This document shows, one piece after another, positions 6,116 through 59,875 of a stretch of DNA of 64,000 bases. Position 1 is the first letter of the stretch. Each line of letters starts with the position of its first letter. Origin of the DNA: Dromaius novaehollandiae (lineage: Eukaryota; Chordata; Aves; Casuariiformes; Dromaiidae); the NCBI RefSeq assembly GCF_036370855.1, contig NC_088132.1, positions 64,766,841-64,830,840 on the forward strand. The letters run 5' to 3'. The notes under the pieces were generated by a model. That model saw only the letters and a program-made list of their open reading frames with translations, searched no databases and was not told where the DNA came from. Both the position numbers and the translations under genes were made by a program.

Positions 6116-6712
6116 CTAATGAGCTGTGGCCAGCCTAACCACGTCCAGTGTTACATAGGATTGTCCTACAACATTTTGTTGAAAAGGAGATATGGCAGTT
6201 GACTGGCTTTTGGGTTCATTCTTACTGTGTTCTGGCAAGTTCTCAGAAACGAGAAATTCCCTTGTATTAACAGAATTTTTAAGGTATGGATTGAACACTG
6301 CTTTTTCATTGAGATCTGAGAGGTTTAAAGCTTCTTCCTTATTTTCTTCATTTTGATGTGAAGTATGTTGGGATTCATGTAAATCATCTTCCAGCATTTC
6401 TATGGGTTGAATTTGCTTGGCTGGTATCAAATTTGAAAGCACTTGACTTCTGAAATCTTGGTCAGAAATCGTATAAGGCATGGATGGTGAAAGATGCTTG
6501 GCAGCTTCATGTTCTTCATTATATGGTATCGTTTTATCTCCATTAATCATGTCTTTTGTATTAGTATCAGTATATTCTGAAACATGGTTTTCACGATTCA
6601 TTAGTAGTGAGTCTTCATGTTCTTCAGGAAAACAGGGTTCCAAAACACTTACATCTTCCAAGCCACCTATGGTTTTATCCTCAGACATTACTTCCTTCAG
6701 GAATGAATTATT
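6116..6712 (-). CDS. IL31RA: IL31RA last coding exon: cytoplasmic signalling tail
   Basis: Encodes about residues 676-873 plus the stop. It begins NNSFLKEVMSEDK, comparable to human LNLKESDDSVNTEDR. Acidic and Ser/Thr-rich, with five tyrosines at about 722, 739, 755, 818 and 861. Tyr818 lies in FNPYLKNSV followed by REFLVSENLPEHSK, almost identical to the human C-terminus, whose Tyr721 is the recalled STAT-docking site. The human protein ends just after LPEH.KGE; here 32 more residues follow, including QSYVTLDV. No YxxQ motif of the gp130 type is visible. Acceptor tattgacag; stop codon at 6118-6116. Confidence 0.95.
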   Translation of the reverse strand, partial: NNSFLKEVMSEDKTIGGLEDVSVLEPCFPEEHEDSLLMNRENHVSEYTDTNTKDMINGDKTIPYNEEHEAAKHLSPSMPYTISDQDFRSQVLSNLIPAKQIQPIEMLEDDLHESQHTSHQNEENKEEALNLSDLNEKAVFNPYLKNSVNTREFLVSENLPEHSKNEPKSQSTAISPFQQNVVGQSYVTLDVVRLATAH

Positions 6713-9700: not shown

Positions 9701-12700
9701 TGGACAGCTTTGTAATTAGATCAGATGGCTCAGGGTCATACTGAGCCAAGCTTTAAATATCACCAAGGATGAAAAGTCTACCACCTCTTTAGGCAGCTGA
9801 TGTTTCAGTATCACCTAAAACTACTGTATAGAGCCACTTCTCCCCATTATTATAAAATAAATAGGAAATTCAAAGCAGGAAATAGAGTAACTATAGTGTA
9901 TGTATATTTAAAACTTAATGACTGAAGTAGCATTCAGATTTCTGAGCTGGCTTTCCACCACCTGCCACAGCTAGGTACTGATAGCAGAGACCAGCCCTCA
10001 GCCTAGCATAATTCACCTTGCATTTGAGTAGCAAACTACCAGATGAATTTACAGTCTAAAAAATGCTTAAATAAAAATATCCTGTTTCTTACCCCCAAAA
10101 CCTATTTTAAAAATAGTAATAAGTAACTTTGAATATTACTTACTGAATTTCAAAGTCTTGAAGGTTTTTGGTTCTCCCATGGTTCCGCCAGCTTCATTGG
10201 TTGCCATGATATGAACTGTATATTGGGTATTCGCTTGTAAGGACTTCAGTCTGTATTGCAGAACATCAGGGTTCACAGTTTCATCTTTTTAGGAGAAGAT
10301 TGATGTAAACAAACACACAAAGTGTTTGTCAAAAATCTTATCTTACACTGATAGCTGACAGGGTGCTTTACAGACAATTTGAAATACAAACCAATGCTAA
10401 CAATCCTTTAAGATAAAACACTTAAATTATCAAGCAATGTTTTATCAAAGCTACCTAACAGTTGAGGGCAGAAAATAAGCCATCATGTATTTTTTAAATT
10501 CATCAAGATTTAAGATAGGCAAAACAATCTCACAAAATATATTTTACCCTTAAAAAGAGTGTTTTGAGAACTTTATACCCTCAAGCTGTGGGACCTAAGG
10601 TCAGAAATTAAGATCTTAAAATAGTTGGCAAAGTTTATGCTTCTGCGTGTCCTGAAATTGAACTGTATTTCTAAGTACGTGCAGTCAGACACCAAATATC
10701 CAAAAGGATGCAACGTATCAAACACTTGGACATCACCCCAATAAAGTCAGAGGAAGCTACCTCAAAGCAACATGCCCTCCCGCCCCCCAAGTTTCCAAAT
10801 GCTTCTCTGAATAGAACGCAGTGTTTCAAATACCTTCTCTGTTACTGGAATTAGTATGACATGTTCTACTTTTTAAATTATTTTAAGCAAGGCATATAAT
10901 ATTCTATATCTACAAAGAATATTAAAAACACGTTCATGTTATAAAGTCACTAAAACATTTTCTACTGCATGAAGCCAAAAACAACTTATGCCATTATTTA
11001 ACTCATTCAGTCAAGAAACACTCAGGAAATAGGTGTGCAGCAGTATACCCTGAGATTAAACAAATTCAGTTTCCCTTAAATCAAGGCAGGAAAGGCTAAG
11101 CTATAGAGTTAAAAGGTCATCAATGAAGCCACCTTGGCACAAACTCAAAGTTGTATTCTTATTAAAAAGATGTGATATGAGAGAATCCTCAAAAAAACAT
11201 CAGTACAGTAGGACTTTTCCATTTAGAACCAACTCCCCTGAGTTACTACTAAAAACTAATTTCCTCTGGAAACTAATCTGAAGCCCTAAAACGGGCACAA
11301 TCTGTTGTGTATGAGCAGCTTTGCTAAGTAAAATGGAGACAGCATTTTGCACCGGCTGAGGCTGCGTGCCTTGCGGATGACCTTGCACAAAGCAGCCGGT
11401 ATCAAGTCACTTGGCAACTAACATGGCAAGAATGAGTGTACACAGAGGACAGAATCTGACTGAAATTGTCAGAGTTTCCTCTTTTCAATTCACTAATCAC
11501 CAAGCCCTGGCTCTGAGCTGGGTGTCCAGAAGCAGCTGAAGATACGATAAGCTTTACTATTTTCAGATCTTCAAAAAAAATTAAGATTATGTTAGGTGTC
11601 TGCTAACTGTGATGTATAAAACAAAGAAGTAGAAAACGATTTCTGAAGTGTTGAGTGATACAAAGTATTTTTTATAAATTATACAGGAAGAACAAAGTTA
11701 GGTCACAGAAACACTTCGCATAAAGGATTCTGCTGAGATTTATGCTATGAAAGTTCTGAATAGAGGATTATACCAAGACTTTGTGCGGATGTCATTCCAA
11801 AGGCAGAAAAATAAAAACATGCTAGAAAAATTATGCCACCAGCCTCCAGAGCAAGAAAGCAATACTAAGGTCAGAACAATAAGCATATTTGATCAGATGA
11901 ATCTAAAAAACTATGTCCAAAGAAGCAATTTCTTGGCAGATTTTATCTTCTTAGATATCATTTTTTATTTTGTTTTTCTTATAAAACTGACTGTAAAAAC
12001 ATCTTCACCAGAAAATTTCCACTATTCTGTTCCAGAAGCCAAGGACTTGGGAGAAGCATTCTTCCAAGGACACGCACAGAACTTATAAACTCACTAAACC
12101 CTCAAGAGCTTCATCATTTACGAAATTACACAGAATCCATGTCTTTCCAATATATTTTAGCTCCACTTTAACCCCGCTGTCTGTCTCTGCCATGATTCTT
12201 CCTATTGGGTTCAGAAGCATGTCATGAGAGAAGAGAGAAGAGATGTGGAGATGGACGGAGACTAGTACTTATGGAAAAAAGGGAGATCAAGTGTGTGACC
12301 AGTAACATTGTCCAATTTGTCACAATCCTGCATAATTGTTCTTTTACCATTAACAGAAAACAAGCTGCAAAAAGCCTCATATACTAGCCTCTACCCGCAT
12401 CTGGAAAAGGGAAAAAAAATGACAGTGCCATCATACACTTCCTAAATTTAATGCCTGAATCTTGGAGAGCCACTAGCTTTGCATTCCCCTCAGTTACAGA
12501 AGCAGAAAGGATGATGTGGATCACAGTCACTGCTGCCCTACCACAGGTAGTACAACGCTAATAGCAAAGAAAATTCACTAAGAGCAAGCACTGCTGTACA
12601 AAATAAATCCCGAACAGTCAAAGAAACTGAGCAAGAATATACAGGCAGTATTAAAAATTAGAACACTCACTAGAAGGCTCCTATCATTTAAGTTAAATCT

Positions 12701-15700
12701 TAAAGACATTTGCTTGCATAAAGATTATGGAATTTTAGTACCAGTACTTTCAGATAGACATTTCTGGCATATAACAACAAGGTATGCTAAAAGCTATAAA
12801 AATAATTATCTTCAGATAACAGATTGTCACAATGCTGTTGAAAGCTTTGAGGTTTGATGTATACTTACTCAATTCTTTTCCACCTTCAGGTTTATAAAAT
12901 ATTGTATAGTTACTGATAAAGCCATTTCGTTTATCCTTTGAAATTTCCTTCCATTTAATTGTAATTTCATTTTTGCCTGGAATGCCTGTGTCAGCCACAG
13001 GTCCTTCTGATGGTTCTACACAGAAGTATTATAAATCAGAAAAAAAAAAACAAGCAAGTCTAAGTGTCACAATTTTATCCATCTGCATTACTTTGCACAT
13101 ACCAGTAGCATTAGCTGCTGTAATTGTATGTCTTAACAGTGCTCCAATAGAGTCCCTAACTTTCCTCACCCTCTCTAACGTGATTACTTCTGGTAGCACC
13201 TCCCAGCTTCTATTTTGGTAACTGCATTTGAGGACCTTCAGATAACTAAAAGTCTCTATCCTCAAAACATCACAGAGAAGTTGAGAGGTAAAATATCTTT
13301 TAATACTCTCACAGGTCTCTATTAGCAGGAAAGCATTTAAAAGCAAGTTCTAGCTATGCTTGTAAAAATAATTACTCACTGTATACGCCATTACCATCTC
13401 CTAGTAATTCACGCTGTTTAATGCTGCACAGACCCATACATATATGCACACACAAATTAAAATTTTTACCTGAAATCTTAAGCTTATTTGTGAACTAGAG
13501 TCTTACAGCTAGCTGTATAAAGTCAGTGAATTGACATTACATTTCTACAAATAATGAACCCTTCCCTCCTTGCAAAAAACATTTTCATCCACAGTTTCTG
13601 TCCAACTCAAAGCTCCATGGGCTTTTTACGATTTTTAAGATGCAGGATTGCACATATTCTCTTGTATTATAAAATTTAAGAAAAGCAAGCATTTCCATTT
13701 TACTCTGTGAGCAGATTTCCTCATGTATTAGTAACAAATATGGCACAACTAACTCAGTCATTATATCTAAATCACTAAAATCAAATCTAATTATATATCT
13801 AAACATAGATGCAAAGTTTAAGAGATTATCAGTTTAAAAAAATTATAAGTTTGTGCCAACATCCATAACAAATGCTTTATAAACAGTATGCAAACTTTAC
13901 AAACGAGTAGATTCAAACAACACTGTACTTGTATCAAGACGTGTGTTTTCTTTACTAAAAAATACCATAGAGTTGGTTTATGAACAGAAATCAGGAAGCC
14001 TGGCTCCTGCGTTATTTAAATCATCTCTCTCTCCTTCAGTAATGTGAGTACCAAGTTGCTCAAAGATTATGCACCTTAACAGATCCACAACGCAGCTTTC
14101 ACAGCATTAATAGTTGTAAATACGTACTTTTTTCTTGAACATAAGTTTGCATGGAATATGGAGCTCCTACTTTATTTCCATAGAGAGGATACACTGAGAT
14201 GTTATAGCATATAAATGGTTTAAAGGTTTCTGTAAAGAAAAAAAAGATATTTACTTAATTTCTGCATAAAATTCATACAACAAAAGTAAAAAAAAAAAAT
14301 CCTGCAATTTCTTGCTAGCTGGAGATGGAATTCTAAATATGTTCTGCTCCATACTTGTATTTTCTTCAGCTTTTTAATAAACAGTATATATTTATCTTAA
14401 ATGTTCATTACTACGTTTAACACAATGAACTATTTGATAGTATTCCTAAGAGTGCTTGGATTCTGACTCATTTTTCACTAGAAATACTTCAAATAAGTAA
14501 TTATACTTCAACCTTATGTAGCTTCTATGCAGGAAGCTACCTACTCATCTCTCACAGTGTGAAGTTTTGGAGACAGTTTTTATTTTCAAAAATCCAGTAT
14601 CCAGTGATACATCAGTGGATATCTTTGATTATCACATCATCTTTAGGTTTTTTTTTTTTACCTCTGCAGAGGAGAGTTTACGTGAATCATAGAAACAGTT
14701 TAAAAGGCACAAGGGAGCTCTGATTCTTAACCTCATGTTGAGGTTCCAGTTATGCAAACTGCAGATCTACTTCTAACCAACTTGACTCAAAAGTACAATT
14801 CTACAAACAAAATCTCTGCACTGGAATTTTATGTATTTCAAGACATAGTTCTGGAAATGATATTTCAAACTCTGAATGATCTGGCAGCCCAGCACTTCAG
14901 GAGTGCACTCCTCCCTGCTTACAAGGAACTCTTCAGCTCAGGAAGGCCACATCTGCGTCCTCACATCCAGCGGGGTGAAGCCAGTGTGAAGGGTTTCCTA
15001 AGCCTTTCCTTCCTCAAGGTCTGCAGCTTGTTCGGCTGCTATAGACAGACCCCTGCACTATGTCAGCTCTTGGCTGCTTTTCCATTCCTTACACGTATTA
15101 CAGTTCAGCACAGATAATGATGGTCCACGTGTTGCTCCAAAATTCCACAAAGAAACGCTGGAAACAGGCCTGAGCAACTGTAAGTCACCTTGAAGCATCA
15201 AGTCCAACTTATGTTCAGGGTAAACAAAGATCTGTCCCCATCATGCTTAGCAGCAAGGAATTTTAAATGAGTGTCTATAAATAGCATTTTATTCCTCACA
15301 GCAACTTGCTGGAATAGCACAGAGCAATTTTCAGAATAAGACTCCAGACTTATCCATCTTATTTCAAAACATTATTTCAAGCAGATTTTTGTTTTACTGC
15401 AACAGAAACACTACTCAAAGAAGTGTTGTCTAAGCCTATAAAACGAATTTCATAGGCAAGCTAGACTGTCGCCATGAACAAACCATATGCTCCTTTTCAC
15501 TATAGCAAATGCAGAGTACTTGTTTCCTGAAGACTGAAATTCATTTCCTTGATGTGCGATTCAGAAAGATCCTTACATGAACATGAGTGATCTTCAAATT
15601 TAATAAATTTAATTTCACCAATGGAGAACCAAACAAGAAATAATCCAAAATTCACTTTCTTATGTATATTAAACATTTTAACCATTGTTCCTATGTTCGT

Positions 15701-18700
15701 AAAATAAATAGCCAGATGTTTAAAGAAAAAGATGCATTTCTATTTTATTATCTAAAGACAACATGCAAGGGATATTCACATTGATATTAACATTCACAGT
15801 CTTCCCTTTGTACATACTTCTTGACCTCTACACACTGTTGTAAAATTAGATTTTTTTGTGGCAACTACGTGCACATAGCCAAATCATTACTATTTAGAAA
15901 ATTTTGCAATTAAAGTAAGCCTCAAAGAAAAAGATGAGCAGATCCTCACCTATTTGCCCATGCATCTTATGGCTACTCAAACATCTGAGAAACACTTTCG
16001 GTCATATATACAAATCTTACTAAGATATTTAACATGTCAAATTGACCAATTACTCCATTTATTTATTTCAAATGAACATTTCCCCTGAAATTCTCTTTAA
16101 GATTTCATGTTCTAACACACATGAAGACGCATGTTCTTTCCCATCTTTGCATTCAGTTTTTTGGTTCTAGATCTCTCTGCTAAAATAGCATGCATCTGTC
16201 AGGCCTCCCTACTTGAAATTTCATGTCAGAAAAATCAAGCCACATAAGTGCTTGAACATGAAATCTGTTGCCTAATCTTATATGGGAACAAATACCATCT
16301 TGCATGGTATGTGAAAATTTGAGGCAGTTAAAATTGCTATTAAATTACACACAGATTTCAATAAAACACTTAATACTGTTGTTTTTAAAATGTTGTAAGA
16401 AAAGCTGCAAGAGTTCAAATCCTTTAATATTAAATTTATGCATCTTTCAAATGTCAATTTTATTATGTTTTATGTGCATAATAGATACAATTTACAGTAT
16501 GGTGTTCTGGATCAGGATCAAAGGGGATCTGAAAGGCCATATAAAGGAGATGCCCAATTCCTGTTAGCTTTATCTAGAAGCCAGTAGAAGTTAGGTATCT
16601 TAATCCCCTTTACTCTATTAAACACATACGTTAAGTATGAAACTGATCAATCTGACCAAAAGTAGAGAAATAATGCTAACTTTATTTTCAAAATCAGCTT
16701 CTTGTGGCTTCATTGTTGTTTCTGCTTTCCAGTCTACATATAAATACATGCACATCTGTACATTGTCACAGCTGTAATGGGTAAATTAACGTACTCTTGT
16801 TAGTTCTCCAGTTTGTAGAATTTGATATATATAGCCATGATCTACAAAAAGGATCCATCTCCAGGTCCTCATACCACTCAACAACATATCTGGTTACTTC
16901 TGATCTGGAGGCCATCCATTCCACAACCACTTCTTCATTTGCTGTAAAGGTCCTCGCTGCCTCAATAATCTGAGCAGCTAAAAATTTAACAGAAAACGTT
17001 ACAAATTTAATCCGAGTAAAAACTGCAGTAAGAAAACAATTCAGTGATAGCAAACAGATTGTTTCATGAGAAGCGCATAAGAATCTGCCAAGATAAAAAA
17101 GTGGAGATTGTAAAACACTGCTTCATTTATATGTACATGAACGTTTATGTGGTCAAACTTGCAACCAAAAAAGGGGTAGGGGAGGGGAAGGACAGGGAAA
17201 AATTAATGAGATAATACACAAGGAGATTTACACATACAGAATCAAAGATAAGTCTCTCTCTCATGATGCACTTTACACTTTGCTGGTTGCAAATAGTGTA
17301 GATACAGAAAATTTGACTGGAACTTCAGAAAGAAATACAAAATCAGTAAATCAGACCAGCAAGTTCAGAGACAGTTAAGCAAAAGGGAACTGTCAAGCTG
17401 CAGAACAGAGGTACTGTAAGCCTGAGTTAAAACTCAACCTGGCAAAGCACTGGAAAAAAAGATTAGTGTAGGAAAAAAAAAAAGTCACAATATGGAAAGA
17501 GACGGGAAGACTCTTACTGTGGGATAGAGGGGGGATAGAGAGGTAGTCTGCAACCTCCAGGACAAGATGCGGTCATGTCTACGTATCTAATTTTCTGATC
17601 AGATTGGAATGTGACTGAGCAATCCCAGAGGGCCACTTGCACTTTTTTTTCCATGAAAAAGCTCATGTAGAAGTGATTCAGTGTGTCAAACGTAACCTCC
17701 CTTCTGGAGTGTGGCTAGGCAGCAGACTGTTGCAATACAAGTTTAACAGAGATACCAGAATTAAACTAAGAGCCAAAGAATACAACTAATGTGCTACGGG
17801 AGACCAGCTTCCTGTCCCTGACAGTGGGCAGAACTGGGTATATTTCGGGAACACATATGAGAACAGAAAAAATGTTTCTCTCAGCTGCCGTTAATACATC
17901 TTAAGGACTTCTGTTAAACACATCTTTGTTTATGTGACATTGATTAACACACTGTAAAAATATCCTGTGGTAACAAATTTCATGAGTTGGTAGATAGGTG
18001 AAACAGAATTGGTTGGGACTATATCTGGGAGGTCCAAGATTAAAATATATAAATAAATAATAGAAATCCTAATAACATTGTTAGCTCTCTCATGTGCTAA
18101 AGCAAGGGTCCCAACAGTAATCGTCTATAAAGGAAGTACCATATCCGATAACAAAATATGACAACCAGAAAGATAACATTATACCAGTAACTTTAATTTC
18201 TTTTCCGTTGTGAAGCATGCTATTCAGTTTAGTCTCCGCAACTTTGAATGGATTAAATAAAGCAGAGAGACTTGATGTTTCCCCACTGCCAGAACAGTAA
18301 TGGACTACACGTTTCTGTACAGCCTCTCGTATTTATAGATCTAAGACAAAAAAAATCCATAGCAGAATTTTGCTTCCACTACGACTGCACTTAAGCAAAT
18401 GTCAAAAAGATCATTTGACATAATGAGAAAAATATATCGCAATATTCAGAAATCTTACTTTTTTCATCAGTAGATGGAATCCTCAAAGTAGCTTCAGGAG
18501 AATCTCCAGCAGAATTATAGGCAATAACAGATATTATATACGCCTCATCATTTAAAAGTAAAGTAATTTTCTTATTAGTAGTGATGTTCATCATCATAAG
18601 AGAAGCATTGTTTTCTGGAAAATACTGTATTCTGTAGCCTAGAATTCTCCCAGGTGGTGGAAAGTGATTTAATAGCTATTTAAAAAAATATATTCAGTAA

Positions 18701-21700
18701 TAAGTGTTTCACAGTGTCATTTATATAGTCAAAAGTATATTACTGTATTCAGACATTTTATCTCTAATAAAAAACTACACAACTATGAAGATAATTGAGA
18801 GGGAGGAGAATGTTTGGGTTTTTGAATGCAAACATACTCTAATTCACAATAAGCTCATCACTTTGCTACTCAATATAGATTCAACAGAACATCTCACTAC
18901 TTCATAATAGCAGTTCTGTAAACAATTAGAAAGCATGTTTTTACTTCCATCGTGTCACTGATGCTACATCTTGAATACTTTTTAGTGCTACATTGTGCTC
19001 TAAGAATAATTTTATCACAAGAGAGTAAAAACCTCTTAAAAACTTCTAATAAAATAACAAGTGATCTAACATAACACTTCCTGAAGAGACCAGGAAATTT
19101 CTTCAGAAGTTACACTTCTGCATTAGTTACTTAAGATATAACTTCAACATAAGACCAGACGTCTTTTTCAGTAATTTCAGTACATAAATGTCCAGGTCAA
19201 ACCAGTATGATTACAGTATATTTATAAAAGCAAAGTACTCTCCTTCAGTCACATCTTCAGAACAGTGAGCTGCAACAATTCCATTAAAGGAGAAGTTTAA
19301 AAGTCAAATAGTGAGATTTGAAACACAAAAAGCCTATGGTTACGCTGCTAGAAAACTGAAGAGAGTTAAAACACAGCTTTGGTAAACTGTATTACTTAAG
19401 AGCAGTTGTAAGGATTTTCAATCAGATTTTTCCAGATTTTTTTTTTTTCTGGACACACTTAGACCTGCCCCTTCCACACTGGTTACTAAGCTGTACTCAT
19501 CTACTGCTCAGCCAACAAAAAACTTTTCATTTTTCCTTTAGTTCAGTGATGTCCTTTTTTGGTGACGGCAAGACCTAAATGTTTCAGACTTGCTTTTATG
19601 TCCTACAACACAAATTTTCAAATGCAACATCTACTGCAAGATACCACTGTGACCATCAAATCACAAAAAGTATATATACCTTCCACATAAGATGTACAGA
19701 TCTATTTCCAGCTGAGCATGAAGATTCAATTACCCTCCACAAATCCACTTTTTCTGAGGGAGCTATTTAAAGACAAAAAAAGCCCTTGAAATTTCTTTAA
19801 TATTACAAAGATAGGGTAGTATGGTAAAAACAAAAGGCTTCAAAAATACAGTCTGAGAGCAATTTACAAGTCTTTCCTTGTATTTGTGATGTGGTGCTCT
19901 TTTCCCTTTAAGCATTTCCCTTGTAGCTTCCTTGTCCTTCTCAAAACTTTCCTGTCCTTCACTTTTCTTTTGCTCAGATTTTAGACACCGTGTTATACTC
20001 AAAAACCATTTATTCCATCTCTTTCCTGATTGCCATTTTTTACCACAGACATTTTAGATTATTAAATTCTAAGGGCGAAGACACTATCTTCTTACATTTA
20101 TGTGCTATGTACTATACATTGACAGCACTGTATAAAATAATCTTAACTTGTTGATTCTAGAATATGTAGCAGACTAATATCTTGGTTCATTTTGAGATAA
20201 ACTACTAGAAAGAGGAGTTGAGAAACAGTTTCAACACATATACAGATATATATTTGTGTGTATATGTATATATGTGCTTTATAAGCAATGTTTGATTTAC
20301 CTAATATTTTCAAATTATCAATGTTCTAGTCATTTACTCTTTGAATGTTTTAGTATTCTAGACATTAAAGATTTTCCTCTAAACCTGCGAACTTTATCTA
20401 GTATAGAAATAACAGGAAAAAGATGACATTTCCTTCTGCTTTATTTTGTTAAGTTCTAGAGGAGATTTCCTAGTCTCGTTTTTTTTTTTTAACTGGCAAT
20501 TTAATTTCTCTACTTAAATTTTACTACACACACTAGCCTCACGCACTTTTGCTACAATACTATTTAGCATGTGTTTATTCTCCATCTACATTCTCATTTT
20601 TTCCTGTATTCCTTTCTATTCATCCTTTTTCCTTAGCCCTACATTTTTTTGTATTTAAATTTCCTTCAAATTCTCCTCCACTCATTGCTCTTTCCTTCCT
20701 TTCAGTTTTCCCTCTTCTATATTTAAACCGAGAGCAAATGTGTATTTTTTTAAAAAGAAAACTCTAAATTCAATAGACTGATAATATGCCGAAAATAAAG
20801 TGTTTTCTGTTATTAAATCCTAAAATCCCAAAGTATATCCAAAGAAAAATACACTGTAAATTTTTAGTCTACCTTTCTCTTCTGTGCTTGCCATTTTCTC
20901 TCTACTCCATTCACTCCAGAATTTTGATTCAACACTGATACACTGAATGGCAACTGCATACTCTGTGGAATCCCACAGACCTGTGAGATTAAGTGATGCT
21001 ATTTTCTCTCCAGAAGTCAGGGTGACAGGAACAGTTTCCTACAAGCAAATATATGAACAAAAATCACTGTAAAAAGAAGATGCAGTAGATAGTTGACTTA
21101 ATGTAAAAACAAAAAAAAACCAAAAAAGCAAAAAAAACCATTCAACAACTTCAAAGGATACACCTTTCATGTTTCCCATCTCACTTCTCTGAAACTTGAA
21201 ACTGCTTGTTCTGTATTTCATTTTTCCCGTATACCATCCTCTTTCTTCCTTTAAAACTCTCAGCTTTGAGAAACTTGAGCCTGAACTAGGTCAGGGCTGA
21301 CTGACCTGTGGTTTGAACCACGTGCTGCTCACAAGCAGTTCGAGAGCAGGTGAGCTGGTGCAGAAGGTGCTGGATAACTGTAATTCCAAGGGTTGGGAAG
21401 CAAATGGGTATTGCTAAAGGCGGTATCATCATATTGCCCTGGATACAGCTCCATATCACAGCAGTGGCATGCCTTGGCAAGCAGCGATCACCTGCAGCTT
21501 GTGAACCAGGAGGTACTTCTGTTTTTTCCTGAGATACAGGGTATTGTAGCTCTTAGCCATGTAACAATGTGGCTGTAGGCAACCCCAAGGTTCATCAACT
21601 TACAATTAAAATGTACAGATCAAGGAAAATATAGGAAGTTCTGGTACTACAAAAAAAATCCTGGAGTATGTATTCTTTCAGCTGTGAAGGAAGACAAGAG

Positions 21701-24700
21701 TATGAGGAAATAACTAATGCAGTACCTTCCTCAAAGAGCAATGATGAAGTAATGTCCTCATCTTAAAACATCATCCATTCAAAAAAAATCTCTGATGGAA
21801 AGTCAGAAACTAGATGGTCGTTCCAAAACAAAAGGTGAAAGAAGACATGAAACGTAGCAAGGTTGATGCCAATACAAACAATAGGAACTAGAAAGATTTT
21901 AAGTGTTCATACACAGAAAGGCTGGCATAATCCCTACACCAACACTAGTGTCTTCTCCAAACTGCAAAAATTACTCAATTACCCACCCTCTCTTCCCCTG
22001 CACATTTCAAAAAACTGAAAAGATACATGCTAAAATAAAATTTAAGCTAGCTAAACTCTCCAATGTCAAAGGTAATTCTTAGAACAAGGGAGATTCCATT
22101 CTTGGGAGCAAAATTCGAGCAGTAGCGTAATGCTGGCGCACAACAGAACCACACACCTGTGATGGAGCACTGGTCTTACCAACTGAGCCTTCCACTGAAA
22201 AGCGCACCAGACTAACAGTGCGATAAGCAGACAGCCTTTAGACATACTGCTCCTTTAAAAAGCGGTATGGGAACTGCACTGCCTAATGAAATAGCCCTCA
22301 ACCTCTGAAAATTTTAGTCCATTCTGATCTCAAGAAACTCGCTGTCAAAAATAGAAAAATGGACCTATGAGGATGAATTTTGGGAACTAAAACACTGGTA
22401 AGTAGCCAACCTATAATAAAGGGGGCTTTAGACCTGACATCAATTTCCTGCAGAACTTGACATGGAATTGCACAGACAGTGTGTATCTTTAAGTTACTTG
22501 ACAAAAGGCTGTAAACAATATTTAATTATAATTAGAAACTAAGTATATGCAAGTAGAAAAACAGGTAATCCAGTTTTCACAGTCCACAAACTATTTAGAT
22601 TCTTTTGACAAACAGTCTTAAAAGGTCAGGAAAACAGTCATTTGCTCAAACAGGTTTTGCATATCTGTGCTCAGAGACAGAAAAACAGCTCCTATATCAA
22701 GATGATTATTTGAGGCTGTTGTCTTTGGCCATTGCCATTGGCTTGGCAAAGGATAAAACTACGAACTATGCTTGCCCAATCTCCTACAGAACTAAACTCA
22801 CTGAAACTGTGTCCTTCCTGACCCTTGTTAATAGTTTTTCTCTAGGAGGTCTGTGGGAAAAAAAAGCAGAAATCCTGAGGAAGATGGTTGTAAATTGTGT
22901 AATTTGATAATGAAAAAGTAGACAGGTGATTTCTTATGCAAGTGGTAACAAAACAGACAAAACAAGATAATGCTGTGACTTGGCAAAAAACGCGAACATT
23001 TTCAATGTTCAAGAAGGATCCCATATGCACGTAAGCATCACAAGGACAACGGTGTCTTGACTCCAAAGGGAGGGACATCTTGAAGTGATCTTTTAAATAA
23101 CTATGAGTTCAGTCTCTGATATCCAGGGCAGACTAAAGCCATCCTGCCCATCAGGTCATCGAGGATATTAAATCTTGAATCCAACAACAAATGTCTTATA
23201 TCTACAGTAAAGAAACTGAGCCATGAGAACATGAAAAGGAAGCTAATTAGAAACAGTTTTAGAAGCAGGAACTTCTTCAAAGTCCTGAATACGACCAGTT
23301 ACCATGATGAATTTTTCTTCTCTCCCAGAATTAAAAGTTTAATGTGCAAAATACTGAGGTGAAGAATGACATTTAAGCTTAATGAGCTTAGAAAAAGCCA
23401 AACCACCTGACTCATTCTTAAGTTTGGAAGAGGAAACAATAAGACTGCAAACGAAATTGCTTCCATAGTGAGAAGCATCAGAATAGACCATTTAGATGGA
23501 ACTAAAGCAGCAAAAGACTAAACAACATTATGTTTCTAGTAGGCACTTTAAGTGTCAGGAAGACTCAGGAAGAATAACTTCCCTTATTTTCTATATTACA
23601 AAATTAATACTTTAATTCATTGAAAATTAGTGTACAATTATTCTTATAACTATTGTGGTTGAGAGTCAATACTGTTTTCATCACCACAACGTAACATGAA
23701 AATTCAAGTATTTTGACTGATTCTCTGTGTAACAGGTGAGCCCTGAAGCTTTTACAGAAATGTTCGTAAGTATGGTATGTACCAAAATAGACATGGACCA
23801 AAAGGAAGTGATCAATTCATCCTAGACAATGAAACAATAATCGTAAGATCGTATATACCTAATTACCATCCACTAAAATAACTGGATTTTATCATTAGTT
23901 CCAATTACTTCTTTCCTTTTTCTCGTTAGCATTTTATAACATTAAGAAAGTTAGTCACAAACAAGCTAACATTAGGAAAAAGAAACTGTGCAGCTTACCG
24001 AAGAGTTCGAATACAAGTTCCTGTATCGAACCCGGCAGTTTAAGTCTTGAGAAGGTATAATCTTCTCAGGTTTTTTCCAGGTTACTGCGAGCAACTGCTT
24101 TACACCAGCAATTTTTTTTACTGAAAGTATTTCAGGCGGAAATTTAAATTTCTCTAGAATGGAGAAAGAAGAGTATTAACATGAAAAAGAAAGCTTTATA
24201 TGAAAGTTTAGAATTACTTGGCCTATACAGATTCCAAGAAGGAATATACTATCCATATAATGTATCTTTTATCATACACATAATGGTGCATTTTATAGAA
24301 ACTAAATCTACATATGGGAAGTTATTTATAAGAGACACTACACACAACTAAGTTAATGCTAACAAACTCAAACAGATGTGCACATTTCTTTCATCCATAT
24401 AGGTCTTGAAGAATACTACCAAAGTCTCTTCTCAGGGAAATCAGCAAGAAAAAGAACAAGTTGGAGCTGGGATACTTAACAGGCTTGAATGCAAGGAGTA
24501 AAGGAGCATAAGGCTGAAGAACTGTTAGAGTGCTGCAGCAAAAAGACTCAACTAAAGGGGTTGTCTTTGCTTCTTGTTCGCACCAAGTGTCAGATAACGG
24601 ACTCTTCTTTAAAATTCTTTACCATAACCAAAATTCTACCCTGCATGATTATGTAGCGGTGCTGTACCATAGATATCTGTAAAACACTGAGTAGCTGGAT

Positions 24701-27700
24701 CTAACATATGGGGTCCAAGCAGAAGCACAATACTACTGTTATGCAGTTACATATGTTCCACACAGTATGGTTCAAGGAAAGCTTTCTAGCTTGGACTCAT
24801 CCTACTTTGAGCCTGAGCATCAACATTTCACATGAGCCAGCAAATCAAATAAAATTCCACAACCTATCACGTGCATTGAAAAAGACAGTACTACAGAGCT
24901 GTGCATTATGTAGGGAAGAATAACTATGTCGACCTTTTCCTACTCAGATCATAACCTTGGTAAACTACACCACAATCAACAGAGGAAAATGCAACACAGC
25001 ACAGAGGGAGAAGAGATAGATTAAAATATCAGTCCCAGGGACTGCAGGACAGGTGATTTGTTTTACATTTCTAACCAGAAAGTAAAATAGCAGAGTAAAT
25101 GATGGACAGATCCGGAGAAGCTACAGTATCATCTGTTCATTTACAGCCAGATTCTGCACTGATGTCCACTATCACTCAAAAATATGCAAGTACAGTCCAA
25201 GGCACCCCTTAGTCTGATAGAGTTTTAGCACATGGTCTTTACTGGTTAATAAAAAACCCCCCTAAGTTTACAACAGCTACTTCAGACATTAGCTAAAATA
25301 TTGTTGTAGTTGGATGCTCCATATTATGAATATGACCCACTATCATTTTTAATCACTTATCTGTAAGACCTTAGTAAGAACAATTTTCTCAAAATTGCTG
25401 CCTGTTCCAATCAGTTCAAAGAATAGTATATGGAAATGCAATCAATTATAATGTAATAAGAGACTTCCTTCACTTAGATATATAGAAGTATAATTTTGCC
25501 TAAACTGAAAGCATCCAAATTTTGATGAAATAAAAATTGAGAAGGATGAAATAGTTTGTTCAATTCTAAATAAGCTCAATTTCAGAGAGACAGTAATTTT
25601 AACTAACAATTAAAATTAGATGGCATTTCAAAGCTAAACCCCATTTCAAAAAAAAATAATTTCAAAACTATTATATTGAAAAAAATTGTTTCTGTAATTT
25701 TCTTCCAAATAAAAAAAACCTTTGATCACACAATTTATTTCAGCATCCTCAAAACGTACAAATGCTGTACTGGAGGGAGGCGGGGGGAACTAGGTAGAGT
25801 ACAATCAGGTCAACATGTAGTGTGTTTTATCCTCAGTTAACTTTTTTTTTAATTACCTATTTTTTCCAAAGCTATAGGAACACAATCTGATGATGCTTCA
25901 CCCAAAACATTTTCAGCTTTCACCTGAAAACAAAAAGAACTGCTATATGGGGTATTTGGGTAATAAAATGAACATGACTCAGTTTTGCTTTGGCAGCTGG
26001 AGCCAACCATATTTGGAATAGTCACACCTTGTTCTCTCATCCTACAAAAAATAAAGGAAAATAAAAGGAAGAGTTAGAAATCAGAGGATTTTCTTTGAAT
26101 AAATTTATTTGATTGTTAGGTTAGGGTTTAATTAGTAGTTATCTGTTTTGGGGGTTTCAAGACATTTTAACCAATAAACATCTCCTTTGATGACATTTTT
26201 GTGAAAACAAATACTGTTCCCAAAATGAACTGCTCCTACAGATCCATTGTACCGTATCTAAAACTGGTAAATAATACATATAAATATCCTGCACAGAGTC
26301 AGTTAGTCCTAACTGCAATTAGTGAGACAACTTCCAAGAAACACGAATGGGTACAAATGTCTCAACAGGGGATCTATGGCTTATTTTTTAAAATTAAAAT
26401 CTCAGAGCAGTGAAATCAGATTATGTATTTAAAAAGGAGGTCCTACATGCAATTAATATATATCTATGTATGTAGGTATGTAAAAAGATATAGCAAAAAG
26501 AAAAAACATAACCAGTTCATGAACACGGAAACACATCCCACATGGTAGAGCTACATGTTGACACTTCCATGTATCTTAAAAATGGAAAAAAAGAAGAGCC
26601 AAATTGTGCCAGTGCCAAACTATTACAAGAGACAGAAATCTGACAGATTTTCTGAAAGAACACACAGATAGAACACATTTCTGCCTTTTTTGGGGGGCTA
26701 AAAAAGCAGTTCCCTTGAAATAGTAAGTTTATCATTACAGAAGAAAATTTGTTCATATTTTGCATGCTAAGGGTAACCTTCTGTGACCCCTGTTTATTGG
26801 CCTTTTGACAGAACATGGCTAGCCCCTTGCAAGATGCAGCTAAATACCAAATATATTTTGGTGCCTGCACATGCAAATTACATAAATTTTTAAACATTTA
26901 CACAAACAATACAGATTAAGGCTTTGGCTTGCAATGGTTCTGCTTTAGAGTACAATATATAATGCATAATATGCTTCTAATAAGTAAAGTAACTTGAATA
27001 TTGCATTTCAAAGTAAAAAAATGTATACATTCAACAATATCCCTATGTGCAACACATTAGTACAAGCAATCATATTTGGTATGACCATGCAGCATAAAAG
27101 AGCCTTTGTTTTAAACAATTATCAGTTCAAAATCATTAGAGGAGGAAGTGATCTTTTTTAAATTCCCATACTAGATAGGGACAGATAGCAACAGAGCAAG
27201 TTTCCAGGTAACACTCCAACAAAGCACCTCCATTCTGACTTGGCAGCAGAATAACCTAAAAGATTATATCTGCACCTAGGTTCACTGAGCTTTTGATTTC
27301 ATTAGTAATGATATTTCAAGGGTACAACAGAATGTTACTTTTGATATAAATATTTGTCTATTGAACATTAGCTTGAAAACACTCACTTCTTTCATAAAGA
27401 GTACTAAAAAGGTATCAGATTGAAACTTCTTTCAATCATTACCAACCCAAAATTGAACTTAACCGACTGAGGACTGCCCTTGACTCTAAACTCTGTGGTG
27501 CTTCCAGGTTTTGCTCACACAGAAGCCAGGATATGAGGGAAGGGAGCTAACAGTCTTACCCCAATACCCCAGTTCCGATACATTCTATACTTACATTTTT
27601 CTATAAAGAGTATAGTTTGTTGTAAGATTCGTTTGTCTTCCTGAAGTCCAGCTACAAGCAAGTTCAACATTGAAGTAATAAATGCAGGAAATATTTCCTG

Positions 27701-30700
27701 GTGTGTCCGGCGGAACTACAATTACATAAAGAAAAAATTAATTCTGGTAAAAATAAGCAACTTTAATAAAGACCAATTATGCCAGTCAAAAGGCAGATTA
27801 TAGCAAACTTCAGTAAATGGCTTGCACAGAACTTCTTTTTATTATTTCTTATTGCCCTCAAAACTCTCCACAAAACCAAAACCACTATTTCTTTCCTGGG
27901 GAGAGAGAAAGAAGATTTGCTCCAATTACTTCTCAGAAATACTTAGTTAAGTGGACCTAAAGGTACTTTTACGTTATCCCAATAACAACTTCATATCAAG
28001 CCAATAAATGCACTGGCCTGAACCTCTAAGTATAGCTATTGCAAAGTGACAGTAGCTAAATGCCAGTAAGAGGAAAAAACAAAACATCACAAAAGTCCAG
28101 GAAAAGAGGGCATTCTCTGAAAGATCAGACTCTTTTTTTGTTCCTTCCCAGAATGTCTGATCACACACCCTGTAACACCACTGATCTGAGGAGCCTGCAC
28201 TGTCTTAGAGCGCAGAAGACTACTTCCTGGGAAACACATCTATAAGACCCTGAAGAGACCACTAATTCCAGATTCTTTATCTTATGACCAAGACAGTAGA
28301 AAGGGAACTTATCCTCTGCAATCTCTATAGTCTAAAATCATCCATAATATATAACACCCTCAAATATATCTTATCAGACTTCTTCACTCAGAAGAAACTG
28401 CAGTTGAAAAGAAAACTGTTCTCAGTGAAATAATCTGGTTGAAGAAGCTTTCTCTCCAAAATAATCCTTCTCTCTTCCAACACTTCAAAAGACCTTCCTT
28501 TTATCGATAAATTTATGGCATACTGAACACTGGGAACAGGCAATTCTTTCTGCTCTTCTTTATTCCAGGGATGTATTTCCTTGCATTTATTGCTCCTTTA
28601 CTGGAGCAGAGACCCAAAACATATATTAATATAATCTGGACTTAATCTGTACAATGAATTAGAGAAATTTTATGTATATATTAATCTTGTCACCTTCTTC
28701 AGCCACGACTGTAGTTATAATTTCTATGAAACATAGGATCAGTGGGGAAATTGTCCCTAGAGGAAGCTAAAGTTTGCTAGCCTCACAAAGAGACTTAATC
28801 AAAGAGACAGATCCAGTACTCACTGAACTCAACAAGAAACACCCTCCGACTTCAGCTGACCAAAAGTCAGCATCAGAGAGGTTATGGACTGGCACCAGTA
28901 AAGAGATGGCAGCAATTTCATGATTTCAGATAAAAAAGGAGATACCTGAATTCTGGTGTCTTAAAAATGCCACAAGCTAAAAAAAATATTTTTAAAAATC
29001 AAATTTTTACAATAAGTTACTCGAAAATATTAAATTTCATTGTCCTATATTTCTACTTACAGCCAGATTTAACTTCAGTATGAACCAAAAGTTGTTCTTT
29101 GCCTAGATACTTAATAAAACATTTCACATGTGCTTTGTTGTAAGTGAAATTATGGATGGTTACGCTAGATACAGTCTCGTTGACAACATTATAGTTTTCC
29201 TGAGCAATCAGTTCATGATTCAATTTCCAGATGATGTGGCTTGCATTTCTGTGAGGCATGTAGTGTTTTCCAAGAACACAAAATAGTTTCAGGGTGGATC
29301 CTCTTTCAATTTCAGGAGATAAAGGGAAAATGTCAGCATCTCTGACAGAGTTTTCATCTAAAAACAAAATCAAAAGATATCTCAACCTACTTTCTTTTAA
29401 AATACCTGTAGAAAAATGATAACTTTGTTATCAACAAGTATGCCTAGAGATCATTTAAGCAATGAAAGATCAGAAGTCATCAGATGCTCTCAAAGAAGAG
29501 GCTTCAGGAGGTTTGCTTCCAGTGTGTTGGGCCCAACGCAATGAAAGCATCGCCTACACCAGAAAAATGTTGACAGTGATCATCCAGAATGGGCCAATCT
29601 CCCACCTAAAATCGGGACTTCTGGAGGTATTTGCAAGGTATTTGTTGTCTAGTGAAAATACACAGGTGTGACAGCTTGAGTGCTGCCACTGGGAGATAGA
29701 AATCTTCAAATAATATTTATATAACCCATTTGTTCTTCTAAGCATATTTTATGCACAATGTGAGGTTTTTCAAATGTAGTTCAAATAAAATGCTCAGTCA
29801 CTGGAATCTGATATTGCTGATCACAATAGTGTATTTCACGTTTATTACTGTACTAACATAGATACTGTATAAGAATGATGTTTCTGTAACTTCTCAGAAA
29901 TAATGGAAAAATTTTTAACAAAATGTTTTTTAATAGCTGAACATGAAGAAAGGACTTTTTTTTTTTTGTCTTTTCATACATAAGAACAGGTTTTTTTCAA
30001 CACATTTCAGAGTGTATGTGACTTGGATGGTAACATGACTAATGAGTATTACCAGAAAATACAAATTGCTAAGTATTAAAATTTATAAGTTTTTGTAATA
30101 TATTTCAACATCTTATTAATACTTTTACCTTCATAGAATTTATATTCTCAAACACAGTGCAGGCATTGTATACAAAATTCATATAAAACACACATAAAAG
30201 GAAAGTAGCGAAGCAGGCTGAATGAATGAGATTAGCAGAGTTGTCAAACAGTGCAAGAATCACTCACTGGTCTCCTGCAAGGAGCTAGTTGTTTTGTTTT
30301 TTTACTGATACTTATTCCTTGGTGCCAAACTACATTAATAACTTAAATGACAACAGAAAACAAGTTAAAGCACAAGTGCCATTATATAACACATTACTGG
30401 TGTATTTTAAGTCTGAGAGAAAATAAAATTTATGTGAAGTGTCAGTCACTGTCACAAAGTCGTCATTCCAAACTGCATTATTCCAAACTGGGATTTCCTA
30501 TTCTAACCAACCTATACTATTTGGTTTAATCAGTTTAAATTGATGCTGTTGTCAAAAGTAGCACTTTTAATGCCTGATCATTCACTCACTCCAGCGTTAT
30601 CCCCTTCCTTTGCCAGAACAAGTATCTGTGTAGTGCACCACAAAAACTAGTACTGATGAAAATTAAACACCTGGCAGAAAACATTTAGTTTTCATCCAAA

Positions 30701-31478
30701 TCAGTTTCATAACCGCTTCACAACTGGCCATACCAGCGTTTGTTCCTATGGGAGCAGAGGGAGCTCCAGAAGCACAGGGAGTGCATAACTACTATTTTTT
30801 CTTCTTCCTCCAACTTGAGCAGCTGTGGGGTGGGAGGGCGCTTAAACTGACTGTGGAACTGCTGCTTTAAAAACTGATCTTCAGACATTGCTGACTTAAA
30901 GTTAGGAATAATGTGAAAAAATTGATAGCCTTTCCATTAATCTCTGAATAAATAATACTCAACAATATTTGACTTAAACTAGTATCATGACTTTAGACAT
31001 TAACTGCTCTTTAAATGTTCATGTTACGTAAATCTTAATTTGTTCTGTCAGGAGATCTCCAAATTTACCAGTCTCAACAACCCAACAGGAATTCAACTAT
31101 GATATGATTTTCAGAGGCAGATTTCCCCCTGCTACACCCTGTGCAACAGGGAAATAGTTACACAGATAAGCTTTAAAATACACGAAAGAAAACAAACCCA
31201 GACTATAGTGATCACAGTTAACATTCCACAAAAAGAGATCAAGAACATCAAATGCATTTGTCATGCTATACTGTAGAGTACTTAGCCAATGGCTAACTAA
31301 CTTTTATTTTCTAAATACATTTTTCCATTTTCATAAATCTTGGAAATGTCTTTTAGAAAAGGTCATCTTTTAGAAAACTTTCTTAACGACACACACAAAT
31401 AATCAAGAAACTTTCCATCCTACCTGTTGCAGAGCTGCTGGAGAGCAGGACAAGCATCCAAATCAAATAGTAGAACAT
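6116..31478 (-). CDS. IL31RA: IL31RA-type cytokine receptor, whole coding span (15 coding exons)
   Basis: Type I cytokine receptor of the gp130 family, acting at the plasma membrane. In mammals IL31RA pairs with OSMR, binds IL-31 and signals through JAK/STAT. Exons joined at GT/AG sites with agreeing phases give about 873 residues: signal peptide 1-18, Ig-like domain about 19-117, cytokine-binding module about 118-326 (Cys128, 138, 174, 181; WSEWS 312-316), three fibronectin III domains to about 618, membrane helix about 622-645, Box1 about 650-664, tail to 873. Identification rests on motifs recalled from human IL31RA: ESKFWS(D/E)WS, GY.IQYFPENN, PEATLRIP-like, CYNISVYP, NYTIFY, CWP.VPNPAES and NPYLKNSV. 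The gene lies downstream of DDX4 in the same orientation, as in mammals. Introns carry no other supported gene; one CR1 fragment lies at about 9.66-9.83 kb. The gene appears intact. Confidence 0.95.
6776..6852. repeat. AT/CA-rich simple repeat with hairpin potential
   Basis: A (CA)n run passes into alternating TATG/TATA units, and TATGCATAC-type segments recur in inverted order about 35 bases apart, so the stretch could fold into an imperfect hairpin. It lies in the last IL31RA intron, about 65 bases upstream of the last coding exon. Confidence 0.7.
7576..7654 (-). CDS. IL31RA: IL31RA coding exon 14: membrane-proximal Box1
   Basis: A 79-base exon encoding about residues 649-675: LKKVCWPDVPNPAES then IAVEWPLDASM. 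WPDVPNPAES is the proline-rich Box1 that binds JAK kinases; human IL31RA has CWPTVPNPAES and gp130 has IWPNVPDPSKS. Acceptor caattacag, donor GTAATA, ending in phase 0. Confidence 0.95.
9279..9372 (-). CDS. IL31RA: IL31RA coding exon 13: transmembrane helix
   Basis: Encodes about residues 618-649. A short acidic stalk (NEDD) is followed by a helix from IIFIAVLVGL to WITCIL and a basic stop-transfer signal (KKH). Of the two neighbouring GT sites, the GTGAGT donor at 9278 is used: it leaves two bases that form Val649 with the first base of exon 14 and keeps Box1 in frame. Acceptor ctttgaag. Confidence 0.93.
9657..9830 (-). mobile_element. Decayed CR1 fragment in an IL31RA intron, minus orientation
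   Basis: The plus strand reads ATCACACAGTAATTCAGATTC, CGGAGGTCATCTTGGACAG, then ACCAAGGATGAAAAGTCTACC and ACCTCTTTAGGCAGCTGATG. This follows the reverse complement of a CR1 3' end with many substitutions. Confidence 0.6.
10144..10284 (-). CDS. IL31RA: IL31RA coding exon 12: second half of domain D6
   Basis: Encodes about residues 571-618: ETVNPDVLQYRLKSLQAN, TQYTVHIMATNEAGGT, then FKTLKF. Human counterpart: KTVNSSILQYGLESLK, TSYIVQVMASTSAGGTNG, FKTLSF. It closes the last extracellular fibronectin domain. Acceptor cctaaaaag, donor GTAAGT, phase 1 at both ends. Confidence 0.94.
12869..13015 (-). CDS. IL31RA: IL31RA coding exon 11: first half of fibronectin III domain D6
   Basis: Encodes about residues 522-571. 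PSEGPVADTG, then EITIKWKEISKDKRNGF, NYTIFYKPEGGKEL. Human IL31RA has PSEGPETK, VTITWKEIPKSERKG, and NYTIFYQAEGGKGF. Acceptor tgtgtag, donor GTAAGT, phase 1 at both ends. Confidence 0.95.
   Translation of the reverse strand, partial: NHQKDLWLTQAFQAKMKLQLNGRKFQRINEMALSVTIQYFINLKVEKN
14128..14229 (-). CDS. IL31RA: IL31RA coding exon 10: second half of domain D5
   Basis: Short exon of 102 bases, about residues 488-522. FKPFICYNISVYPLYGNKVG and APYSMQTYVQEK match human KPFWCYNISVYPMLHDKVGE and PYSIQAYAKEG. Acceptor tttacag, donor GTACGT, phase 1 at both ends. It cannot be found as a long open frame because stop codons flank it closely. Confidence 0.93.
16795..16977 (-). CDS. IL31RA: IL31RA coding exon 9: first half of fibronectin III domain D5
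   Basis: Encodes about residues 427-488. IIEAARTFTANEEVVVEW, then YVVEWYEDLEMDP and SNSTNWRTNK align with human IEVMRACVAEDQLVVKW, MIEWFPDVDSEP and SQATNWTI. Acceptor attttag, donor GTACGT, phase 1 at both ends. The frame also runs upstream of the acceptor, but the conserved part starts at the acceptor. Confidence 0.92.
18459..18675 (-). CDS. IL31RA: IL31RA coding exon 8: rest of fibronectin III domain D4
   Basis: Encodes about residues 355-427. GYRIQYFPENNASL is nearly identical to the human GYNIQYFPENNTNL segment. NITTNKKITLLL then SVIAYNSAGDSPEATLRIP matches the end of the same domain in human IL31RA. The exon opens in phase 0 after taaatag and ends with EK plus one base at a GTAAGA donor. 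Confidence 0.95.
19680..19762 (-). CDS. IL31RA: IL31RA coding exon 7: start of fibronectin III domain D4
   Basis: A short 83-base exon encoding about residues 327-354. It was located by searching for the piece missing between exons 6 and 8. It reads APSEKVDLWRVIESS, then RSVHLMWK, against human APCGLELWRVLKPAE and RPVRLLWK as I recall. Acceptor taaatag at its upstream edge, GTATAT donor directly after Lys354. The phases (1 in, 0 out) are what exons 6 and 8 require. Confidence 0.9.
20873..21038 (-). CDS. IL31RA: IL31RA coding exon 6: D3 with WSEWS motif
   Basis: Encodes about residues 272-327. It carries LNLTGL then STEYAVAIQC, and ESKFWSEWSREKM. WSEWS at about 312-316 is the WSXWS signature of class I cytokine receptors; human IL31RA has ESKFWSDWSQEKM. 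The exon opens in phase 0 after gcttgtag and ends with TEEK plus one base at a GTAGAC donor. Confidence 0.95.
23999..24153 (-). CDS. IL31RA: IL31RA coding exon 5: first half of domain D3
   Basis: Encodes about residues 220-271. KFPPEILSVKKIAGVKQLL then VTWKKPE follows the hinge and first strands of the second cytokine-binding fibronectin III domain; human IL31RA reads TEPPKIFRVKPVLGIKRM there. LNCRVRYRN corresponds to human LKYTLRFR. The acceptor used is ctag at 24154; reading AG as the first two exon bases keeps phase with the G left by exon 4. The donor is GTAAGC and the exon ends in phase 0. Confidence 0.92.
25857..26041 (-). CDS. IL31RA: IL31RA coding exon 4: second half of cytokine-binding domain D2
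   Basis: Encodes about residues 158-220. SSCQSKTESCSFYYPN supplies the second cysteine pair (Cys174, Cys181), equivalent to NRASCSFFLP in human IL31RA. FQVKAENVLGEASSD matches the VEAENG/VEAENALGKV strand of IL31RA and gp130, and ALEKI matches human LENIA just before the proline hinge. The exon starts one base before ATG AGA and ends in ATA G at a GTAATT donor; that G forms Glu220 with the next exon. Confidence 0.92.
27595..27715 (-). CDS. IL31RA: IL31RA coding exon 3: first half of cytokine-binding domain D2
   Basis: Encodes about residues 118-158. PGNISCIYYFN followed by LACSWTSG is the first cysteine pair (Cys128, Cys138) of the class I cytokine receptor module. Human IL31RA has ENISCVYYYRKNLTCTW at this point. 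Acceptor aattgtag, donor GTAAGT; phase 1 in and phase 2 out, matching the neighbours. Two N-glycosylation sites are visible (NIS; NLT). The intron to the next exon holds nothing I recognise. Confidence 0.92.
29061..29357 (-). CDS. IL31RA: IL31RA coding exon 2: gp130-like N-terminal Ig domain
   Basis: This exon encodes residues about 19-117 and is bounded by tttttag at the acceptor and GTAAGT at the donor, phase 1 at both ends. It contains the Ig-like cysteine in LKLFCVLGKH, then NASHIIWKLNHELI, Asn-Glu-Thr-VSSVTI, and a second cysteine in HVKCFI. This closely follows the D1 domain of gp130 (IL6ST), which as I recall reads ANYIVWKTNH then NRTASSVT. Mammalian IL31RA starts directly with the cytokine-binding module, so this domain is absent there. 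The junction residue Phe118 leads into PPDTPGNISC, matching gp130 LPPEKPKNLSC. See findings. Confidence 0.93.
31424..31478 (-). CDS. IL31RA: IL31RA coding exon 1: start codon and signal peptide
   Basis: The ATG at 31478 follows GAAAAGGAA, an acceptable initiation context, and opens an 18-residue stretch MFYYLIWMLVLLSSSSAT, a typical short signal peptide with a hydrophobic core. The exon ends one base into a codon at a GTAGGA donor. That base joins the next exon to give Asp19. A splice acceptor (tttcctgcag) sits 18 bases upstream of the ATG, so the 5' UTR continues in at least one further upstream exon. Confidence 0.9.
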
Positions 31479-31496
31479 TTCCTTTTCAGTAGCTAG
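31479..31496 (-). other. IL31RA: 5' UTR part of IL31RA exon 1 and its splice acceptor
   Basis: The stretch between the acceptor tatttcctgcag and the ATG is 18 bases long and contains no ATG. The acceptor means that transcription begins further upstream. Candidate upstream exons are the donor at 31690, the exon at 35928-35646 and the CpG-island exon ending at 36993. Confidence 0.55.
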
Positions 31497-31689
31497 CTGC
31501 AGGAAATACTGTCATAAAATAAAAAATAATATACTTCAAGTAAAGATGCCCCTGAAATTTTAACACTTTGTAAACATTAATATAATAAGAGTTAGTAATC
31601 AGATTCAGCATACCTTACTTGCATCCAAGTTAAAAGCTAGCAGAAACAAATACAGCTTTTGCCTAAGTTAGCAAATGGAAGAGACTTAC

Positions 31690-31850
31690 TGCACGATTTG
31701 ATGTGATTTCGTACAATAGAGGAGAGGATTGCATGGGGTCTAGGGAAGAGACCTCCCATAACTTTTCCTCCTGGCAGTAAGCTGTCAATTTGTTTCAGCC
31801 AATGCTATGCCGCATCTCCTTCCACCCTCTCCAATGCTGATCAGTAGCTG
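31690..31850 (-). promoter_or_regulatory. IL31RA: Candidate non-coding first exon or proximal promoter of IL31RA
   Basis: A strong GTAAGT donor follows GTGCA at 31690 on the minus strand, 193 bases upstream of the acceptor of coding exon 1. The upstream DNA has a short G-rich stretch and an ATTGG (inverted CCAAT) at about 31800. The upstream limit is a guess, and no TATA box is convincing. Confidence 0.35.
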
Positions 31851-31859
31851 GTTATTTGA

Positions 31860-35640: not shown

Positions 35641-35645
35641 CTTAC

Positions 35646-35928
35646 CTGCTATGCCTCTGGTTATATATATTTGACATATATCAAAGGACAACATTAGCCC
35701 TTTTTCCCAACAGTTGAGGCAGTCATCTATAAGGATCCTTACATGCTTCCAAGTCACTACTTTCCAAGCAAGTTTTTTGCCCTGTTGAGCATATTCTGTA
35801 TTCTTTGATCCCAAATAATTCTGTGATAGCCTGTAGGAGACAATTGAATAAGTAAGCATTTTACCCTGCTGACTCAAGTCATCTTGTAGAGGTTTTATGT
35901 TGGCTTGCATCCTTTTTTTGTTTACTAC
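35646..35928 (-). other. Candidate spliced exon, unknown transcript
   Basis: On the minus strand a plausible acceptor (attaaaattacag) at 35929 and a strong GTAAGTG donor at 35645 enclose 283 bases. The interval is open in one frame throughout. An ATG at 35910 would give 88 residues before the donor (starting MQANIKPLQDD, later KVVTWKHVRILIDDC), and I do not recognise the protein. It may be a 5' UTR exon of IL31RA, since it lies between the CpG-island donor and coding exon 1, or an exon of a separate non-coding RNA. If spliced to IL31RA exon 1 the frame meets a stop codon (TGA) before the receptor ATG. Confidence 0.35.
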
Positions 35929-47427: not shown

Positions 47428-47429
47428 AG

Positions 47430-55841: not shown

Positions 55842-59875
<4,034 letters not shown>

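Follow-up and report, generated by a model that had tools for sequence, protein, structure and literature searches.

The receptors closest to the gene described here are human IL31RA (GPL, GLM-R), an itch-cytokine receptor, and gp130, which is encoded by IL6ST. The IL31RA layout has been regarded as a tetrapod trait (PMC1963337, in the passage concerned), and IL31RA and IL6ST have been counted among the clear duplications (PMC12162339, excerpt). According to PMC9222667, il31ra and il6st lie on the downstream side of vasa (ddx4) in gar, catfish and cavefish and are absent from that locus in a further three fishes; for mammals, amphibians and birds the neighbours are described as conserved. The shared vasa-il31ra-il6st order in gar, catfish and cavefish, together with the conserved tetrapod neighbours, suggests that the pair is old, and the statement of PMC1963337 that no zebrafish GLMR (IL31RA) was found sits uneasily with that age. 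For gp130, the contacts made by its first domain (D1) in the IL-11 complex include N92, K46, N82, Q88 and L89 (PMC10662374, excerpt), and the gp130 N-terminus also participates at site III according to a passage of a review (PMC7378365). Here, IL31RA of the emu, Dromaius novaehollandiae, was analysed in a window of 64,000 nucleotides (contig NC_088132.1, positions 64,766,841 to 64,830,840), where it was found to carry an exon for a gp130-type D1.

The window contained a complete IL31RA gene with 15 coding exons running from 31478 to 6116 on the minus strand, which joined into an open frame of 873 residues (Table 1). The layout consisted of a signal peptide, an Ig domain, a cytokine-binding module with WSEWS, three fibronectin domains, a transmembrane segment and a tail. 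A Pfam scan of the full emu protein returned PF06328 and three fibronectin stretches. The motif CWPDVPNPAES of the first cytoplasmic exon is taken here to be the Box 1 region, and the stretch NPYLKNSVNTREFLVSENLPEH of the last exon presumably matches the end of human IL31RA. Elsewhere, positions 47140-47440 of the window contain a long simple repeat in tandem (GGGA/GGAA type) in which several frames are open.

Table 1. Coding exons of emu IL31RA, given in positions of the window and in order of transcription.
Feature	Position	Strand	Basis
Coding start: ATG and signal peptide (MFYYLIWMLVLLSSSSAT), ends in phase 1	31424..31478	-	Gene model
D1 exon, gp130-type Ig domain, phase 1-1	29061..29357	-	Pfam, PDB, splice sites, phases
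D2 first exon, start of cytokine-binding module (GNISC)	27595..27715	-	Gene model; PDB IL31RA E 2.1e-38 for D2-D3
D2 second exon	25857..26041	-	Gene model
D3 first exon	23999..24153	-	Gene model
D3 second exon, carries WSEWS motif	20873..21038	-	Gene model
D4 first exon (fibronectin III)	19680..19762	-	Gene model
D4 second exon	18459..18675	-	Gene model
D5 first exon	16795..16977	-	Gene model
D5 second exon	14128..14229	-	Gene model
D6 first exon	12869..13015	-	Gene model
D6 second exon	10144..10284	-	Gene model
Transmembrane exon	9279..9372	-	Gene model
First cytoplasmic exon with CWPDVPNPAES	7576..7654	-	Gene model
Last cytoplasmic exon and stop codon, contains NPYLKNSVNTREFLVSENLPEH	6116..6712	-	Gene model

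The D1 exon (297 bases) lies between the signal peptide exon and the cytokine-binding module, with the acceptor ttgtttttag, the donor gtaagt and phase 1 at both entry and exit. In the IL31RA frame it encodes 98 whole residues with a partial residue at each junction and no stop. The original prediction had given this exon the same limits, good splice sites, phases matching both neighbours and neighbouring junctions at 31424 and 27715, all of which agreed with the gene model. Its reading of the exon as an Ig domain like D1 of gp130 was likewise confirmed by Pfam, where the exon matched PF06328 (Lep_receptor_Ig) above the cut-off (E 7.3e-15; 55.1 bits against 28.8), and by PDB, where 16 sequences were listed with E no higher than 10, the best 11 being gp130 (E 9.6e-11 to 8e-9) and ranks 12-13 leptin receptor (E 0.07-0.08). 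The parallels IIWKLNH / IVWKTNH and NETVSSVT / NRTASSVT were present in the PDB alignments of D1 with gp130. Stretches of 99 open codons were found at 190 of 25,203 positions (all offsets on the gene strand, 6001-31500), with real exons among the 190. A chance open frame as the origin of the D1 exon was excluded by the Pfam and PDB matches and by this count. Overall, the exon is a real, correctly described gp130-type Ig domain exon of IL31RA.

A D1 would be unsurprising if the gene were a second gp130 rather than IL31RA, as its position next to IL6ST and their common layout would allow. However, emu D2-D3 matched two IL31RA chains best in PDB (E 2.1e-38 and 4.5e-38), with gp130 following some 19 orders of magnitude behind at 5e-19. 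In a tree of four D2-D6 sequences, emu IL31RA paired with human IL31RA and emu IL6ST with human IL6ST (100/100), and a tree forcing emu IL31RA together with emu IL6ST was rejected; of the human sequences in this tree, PDB alignments confirm only IL31RA D2-D3 and gp130 D1. IL6ST was also present as a separate neighbouring gene. The PDB ranking, the D2-D6 tree and the separate IL6ST refute a mis-identified gene, and the probability left for a second gp130 is practically nil. A helicase frame with HRIGRTGR was found beside IL31RA in the window (59432-59875, minus strand), which from its motif we take to be an exon of DDX4 (vasa). With that name, IL31RA is placed between DDX4 and IL6ST, as predicted by the gene order in the passage of PMC9222667.

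Human IL31RA is the orthologue of the emu gene by its module, fibronectin domains and tail end but differs at D1, for which the emu gene has an exon. The PDB chain 9eza_B (Interleukin-31 receptor subunit alpha) starts with MWTWALWML and runs from the signal peptide directly into LPAKPENISC without a D1. This chain and the human IL31RA sequence agree at every one of 118 aligned residues. Although 9eza_B is a construct, it holds the signal peptide and the module with no gap between them, and human IL31RA is therefore taken to have no D1. A Pfam scan of 585 residues of human IL31RA gave no match to PF06328 with E of 0.01 or below. The original claim that IL31RA of mammals lacks this domain thus stood in its human half, on one human-matching protein, and the human layout, with no Ig domain ahead of the module, was not that of emu IL31RA. 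Since the D1 exon is in phase 1-1, its loss or skipping keeps the receptor in frame, which makes a one-step loss easy.

The IL6ST gene was found on the same contig as IL31RA and on the opposite strand, tail to tail, with the ends of the two genes approximately 20 kb apart. Starting at D1 and ending with the last exon, all 14 exons of one gene had a counterpart in the other at the same place in the order and with an identical entry phase. For IL6ST D1 this phase was deduced from the acceptor and the frame only, the signal-peptide exon of IL6ST having been searched for and not found. The matching exon order and phases indicate that D1 of emu IL31RA is the counterpart of the gp130 D1 exon, with the same place, order and entry phase and the same PF06328 family, and not an insert.

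In protein identity between emu IL31RA and emu IL6ST, D1 (32/98, 33%) was comparable to D2 (34/90), D3 (32/101), D4 (39/92), D5 (32/80) and D6 (43/95), for which the range was 31.7-45.3%. D1 of emu IL31RA, only about a third identical to gp130 D1, matched human gp130 (34/97) no less well than gp130 of the same genome (32/98). D1 of emu and human gp130 shared 58 of 102 residues. Identities in the multiple alignment were 28.3% with emu gp130, 30.6% with human gp130 and 36.7% with a second gp130. Compared with the identity between the two gp130s, those between IL31RA and IL6ST D1 suggest that the split of the two D1 domains is older than the bird-mammal split. A phylogeny of the D1 exon against IL6ST D1 of the same species, which had been suggested earlier, was run, and a clade of IL31RA D1 and IL6ST D1 from the same genome was rejected (AU p 0.027). 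In the free D1 tree (ten rows, about 100 residues), emu IL31RA D1 fell beside LEPR on a weak branch (71/74) and the gp130 trio was grouped at 71/78. This weak tree is insufficient by itself for the kinship of D1 with gp130, and that argument is carried by the exon position and phases.

These results bear on whether, once birds and mammals had separated, IL31RA of the emu lineage received its D1 from IL6ST through gene conversion or exon exchange. The two genes are neighbours and their D1 exons have identical phases, as such an event would favour; however, the exon DNA was only 62% identical (176/284) with a longest common run of 9 bases, and the AU test and the D1 identities given above speak against it. 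A recent exchange, the more so as D1 is as diverged as the other domains and no closer to its own than to human gp130, is therefore highly improbable, and gene conversion from IL6ST was rejected on the AU test and those identities. The recent form of the alternative first proposed, an exchange with neighbouring IL6ST, is disfavoured accordingly. An exchange between the paralogues before the bird-mammal split, followed by loss in mammals, is inseparable from simple retention at the present divergence, with the 33% of D1 falling among the values of the other domains, but it requires an extra event while exon order and phases match throughout, and it is considered improbable.

Very probably, D1 is the original first domain from the IL31RA/IL6ST duplication, kept in the emu and lost on the line to human, a reading which draws on one non-mammalian genome and one human protein. 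The ancestral gp130-like gene would have encoded a signal peptide, an Ig domain, a cytokine-binding module, three fibronectin domains, a transmembrane segment and a tail. Its duplication would have given IL6ST and IL31RA, both with D1 at first, and D1 would then have been retained in both copies in the emu genome and lost from IL31RA on the line to human, which is where we infer the timing of the loss to fall. The same history had been offered in the original prediction (a tandem duplication and a later loss of D1), and it is well supported by the 14 corresponding exons and the ordinary divergence of D1.

A search of the emu genome listed ten PF06328 matches, of which seven were above the cut-off: IL6ST and IL31RA, each on both contig C33 and contig C35 (the contig of the window), and LEPR, CSF3R and CRLF1 once each. 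The latter three belong to the same domain family as IL31RA D1 but were 20-28% identical to it and lie on other contigs (C8, C23 and C25). Scans for stray relatives gave 8 pattern matches in viral contigs and 86 in bacterial and archaeal contigs, none of which was confirmed. In addition, C33 and C35 each showed a pair of LIFR_D4 matches at neighbouring positions; on C35 these were at 69.67 Mb and 69.81 Mb, with a strong match on the minus strand and a weaker match on the plus strand. The pair is probably LIFR and an OSMR-like gene, a candidate partner chain. A search of the emu genome with the Pfam model of the IL31 ligand gave one match (E 3.86), below the cut-off, and says little because IL-31 diverges fast.

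The second copy of the region on C33 differed from C35 at 102 of 89,720 aligned bases (about 0.1%). The IL31RA frame on C33 was open; over 2622 coding bases it differed from the window copy at 7, and two of these changes alter a residue. Four of the seven were in the D1 exon, which was open on C33 and shared 293 of 297 bases with the window copy (4/297 versus 3/2325 for the remaining coding exons; Fisher p 0.004). The stretch 27000-38000 of the window, which includes the D1 exon, showed 2-7 differences per kilobase against an average of 1.1 per kb. The excess in D1 is an apparent one: the whole of 27-37 kb was raised, and a few other kilobases were equally high (6 at 21 kb). With IL31RA, IL6ST and LIFR_D4 paired on C33 and C35 and LEPR, CSF3R and CRLF1 single, we infer that C33 (71.8 Mb) and C35 (86.0 Mb) are a sex-chromosome pair (Z, W) still recombining here, as in ratites, and that the C33 copy would be the other allele.

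It is also conceivable that the D1 exon is an open fossil, always or mostly skipped, leaving a mammal-like receptor, as its phase 1-1 would permit skipping in frame. However, the window copy has an open frame, good splice sites and the key Ig residues, the frame on C33 is open too, and an unused exon should have decayed since the duplication, which leaves this reading a small probability. Judged from the sequence, the D1 exon is presumably used in expressed IL31RA mRNA. Messages of chicken IL31RA have been reported in CD4+CD8low T cells (PMC8631335) and mentioned in bone-marrow cultures (PMC9812659), in passages that are themselves silent on D1.

In emu IL31RA D1, the core Ig residues C26, C81 and W45 and the sequon at Asn61 (gp130 numbering) were all kept as in gp130. 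The domain differed from gp130 D1 in spacing, with two residues fewer separating the core Cys from the Trp, and in the loss of both C6 (gap) and C32 (Tyr). In gp130, C6 and C32 pair as a disulphide. The kept core cysteines and Trp predict that D1 should fold as an Ig domain, and it probably still folds. A single-sequence AlphaFold model of D1, built without an alignment, was poor (mean pLDDT 64), and of the 769 matches with E ≤ 10 listed in a fold search with it, none reached E ≤ 0.001.

For the ligand-facing surface, only K46 of the gp130 site-III positions K46, N82, Q88, L89 and N92 was kept in emu IL31RA D1, the other four being changed, while emu gp130 keeps four of the five with I in place of L89. 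The N-terminal stretch matching the gp130 N-terminus was likewise diverged. With this surface so much changed, D1 should not bind the cytokines of gp130 at site III in the manner of gp130, and a gp130-style site III is unlikely on these residues. The functional part of the original prediction, a site III contact like that of gp130 D1, is thus unsupported by the residues, and its extension to higher-order complexes built through D1 is weak. The emu protein would have the full six-domain shape of gp130, with D1 capping the cytokine-binding module, and D1 may contact the ligand or partner of IL31RA itself by a new surface, or may serve folding, glycosylation or spacing. It is a speculative and rather unlikely proposal that D1 in the emu lineage holds a second receptor copy or ligand by a different surface, giving homo- or higher-order signalling without OSMR, the partner on which human IL31RA relies, and that trimming of D1 in mammals made IL31RA dependent on OSMR.

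Searches of an open library of papers turned up no description of this Ig domain in IL31RA, and public gene models may already show it. The emu D1 revises the published view of the IL31RA layout as a tetrapod trait (PMC1963337, in the passage concerned). Since an orthologue with the standard gp130 layout exists, the short layout is not common to all tetrapods and the short form is derived, and an exception in the gp130 family thereby acquires a simple history. Receptors with and without D1 form a natural pair for testing the role of the Ig domain and the partnership of human IL31RA with OSMR. Overall, human IL31RA looks like a trimmed version of an older, gp130-shaped receptor.
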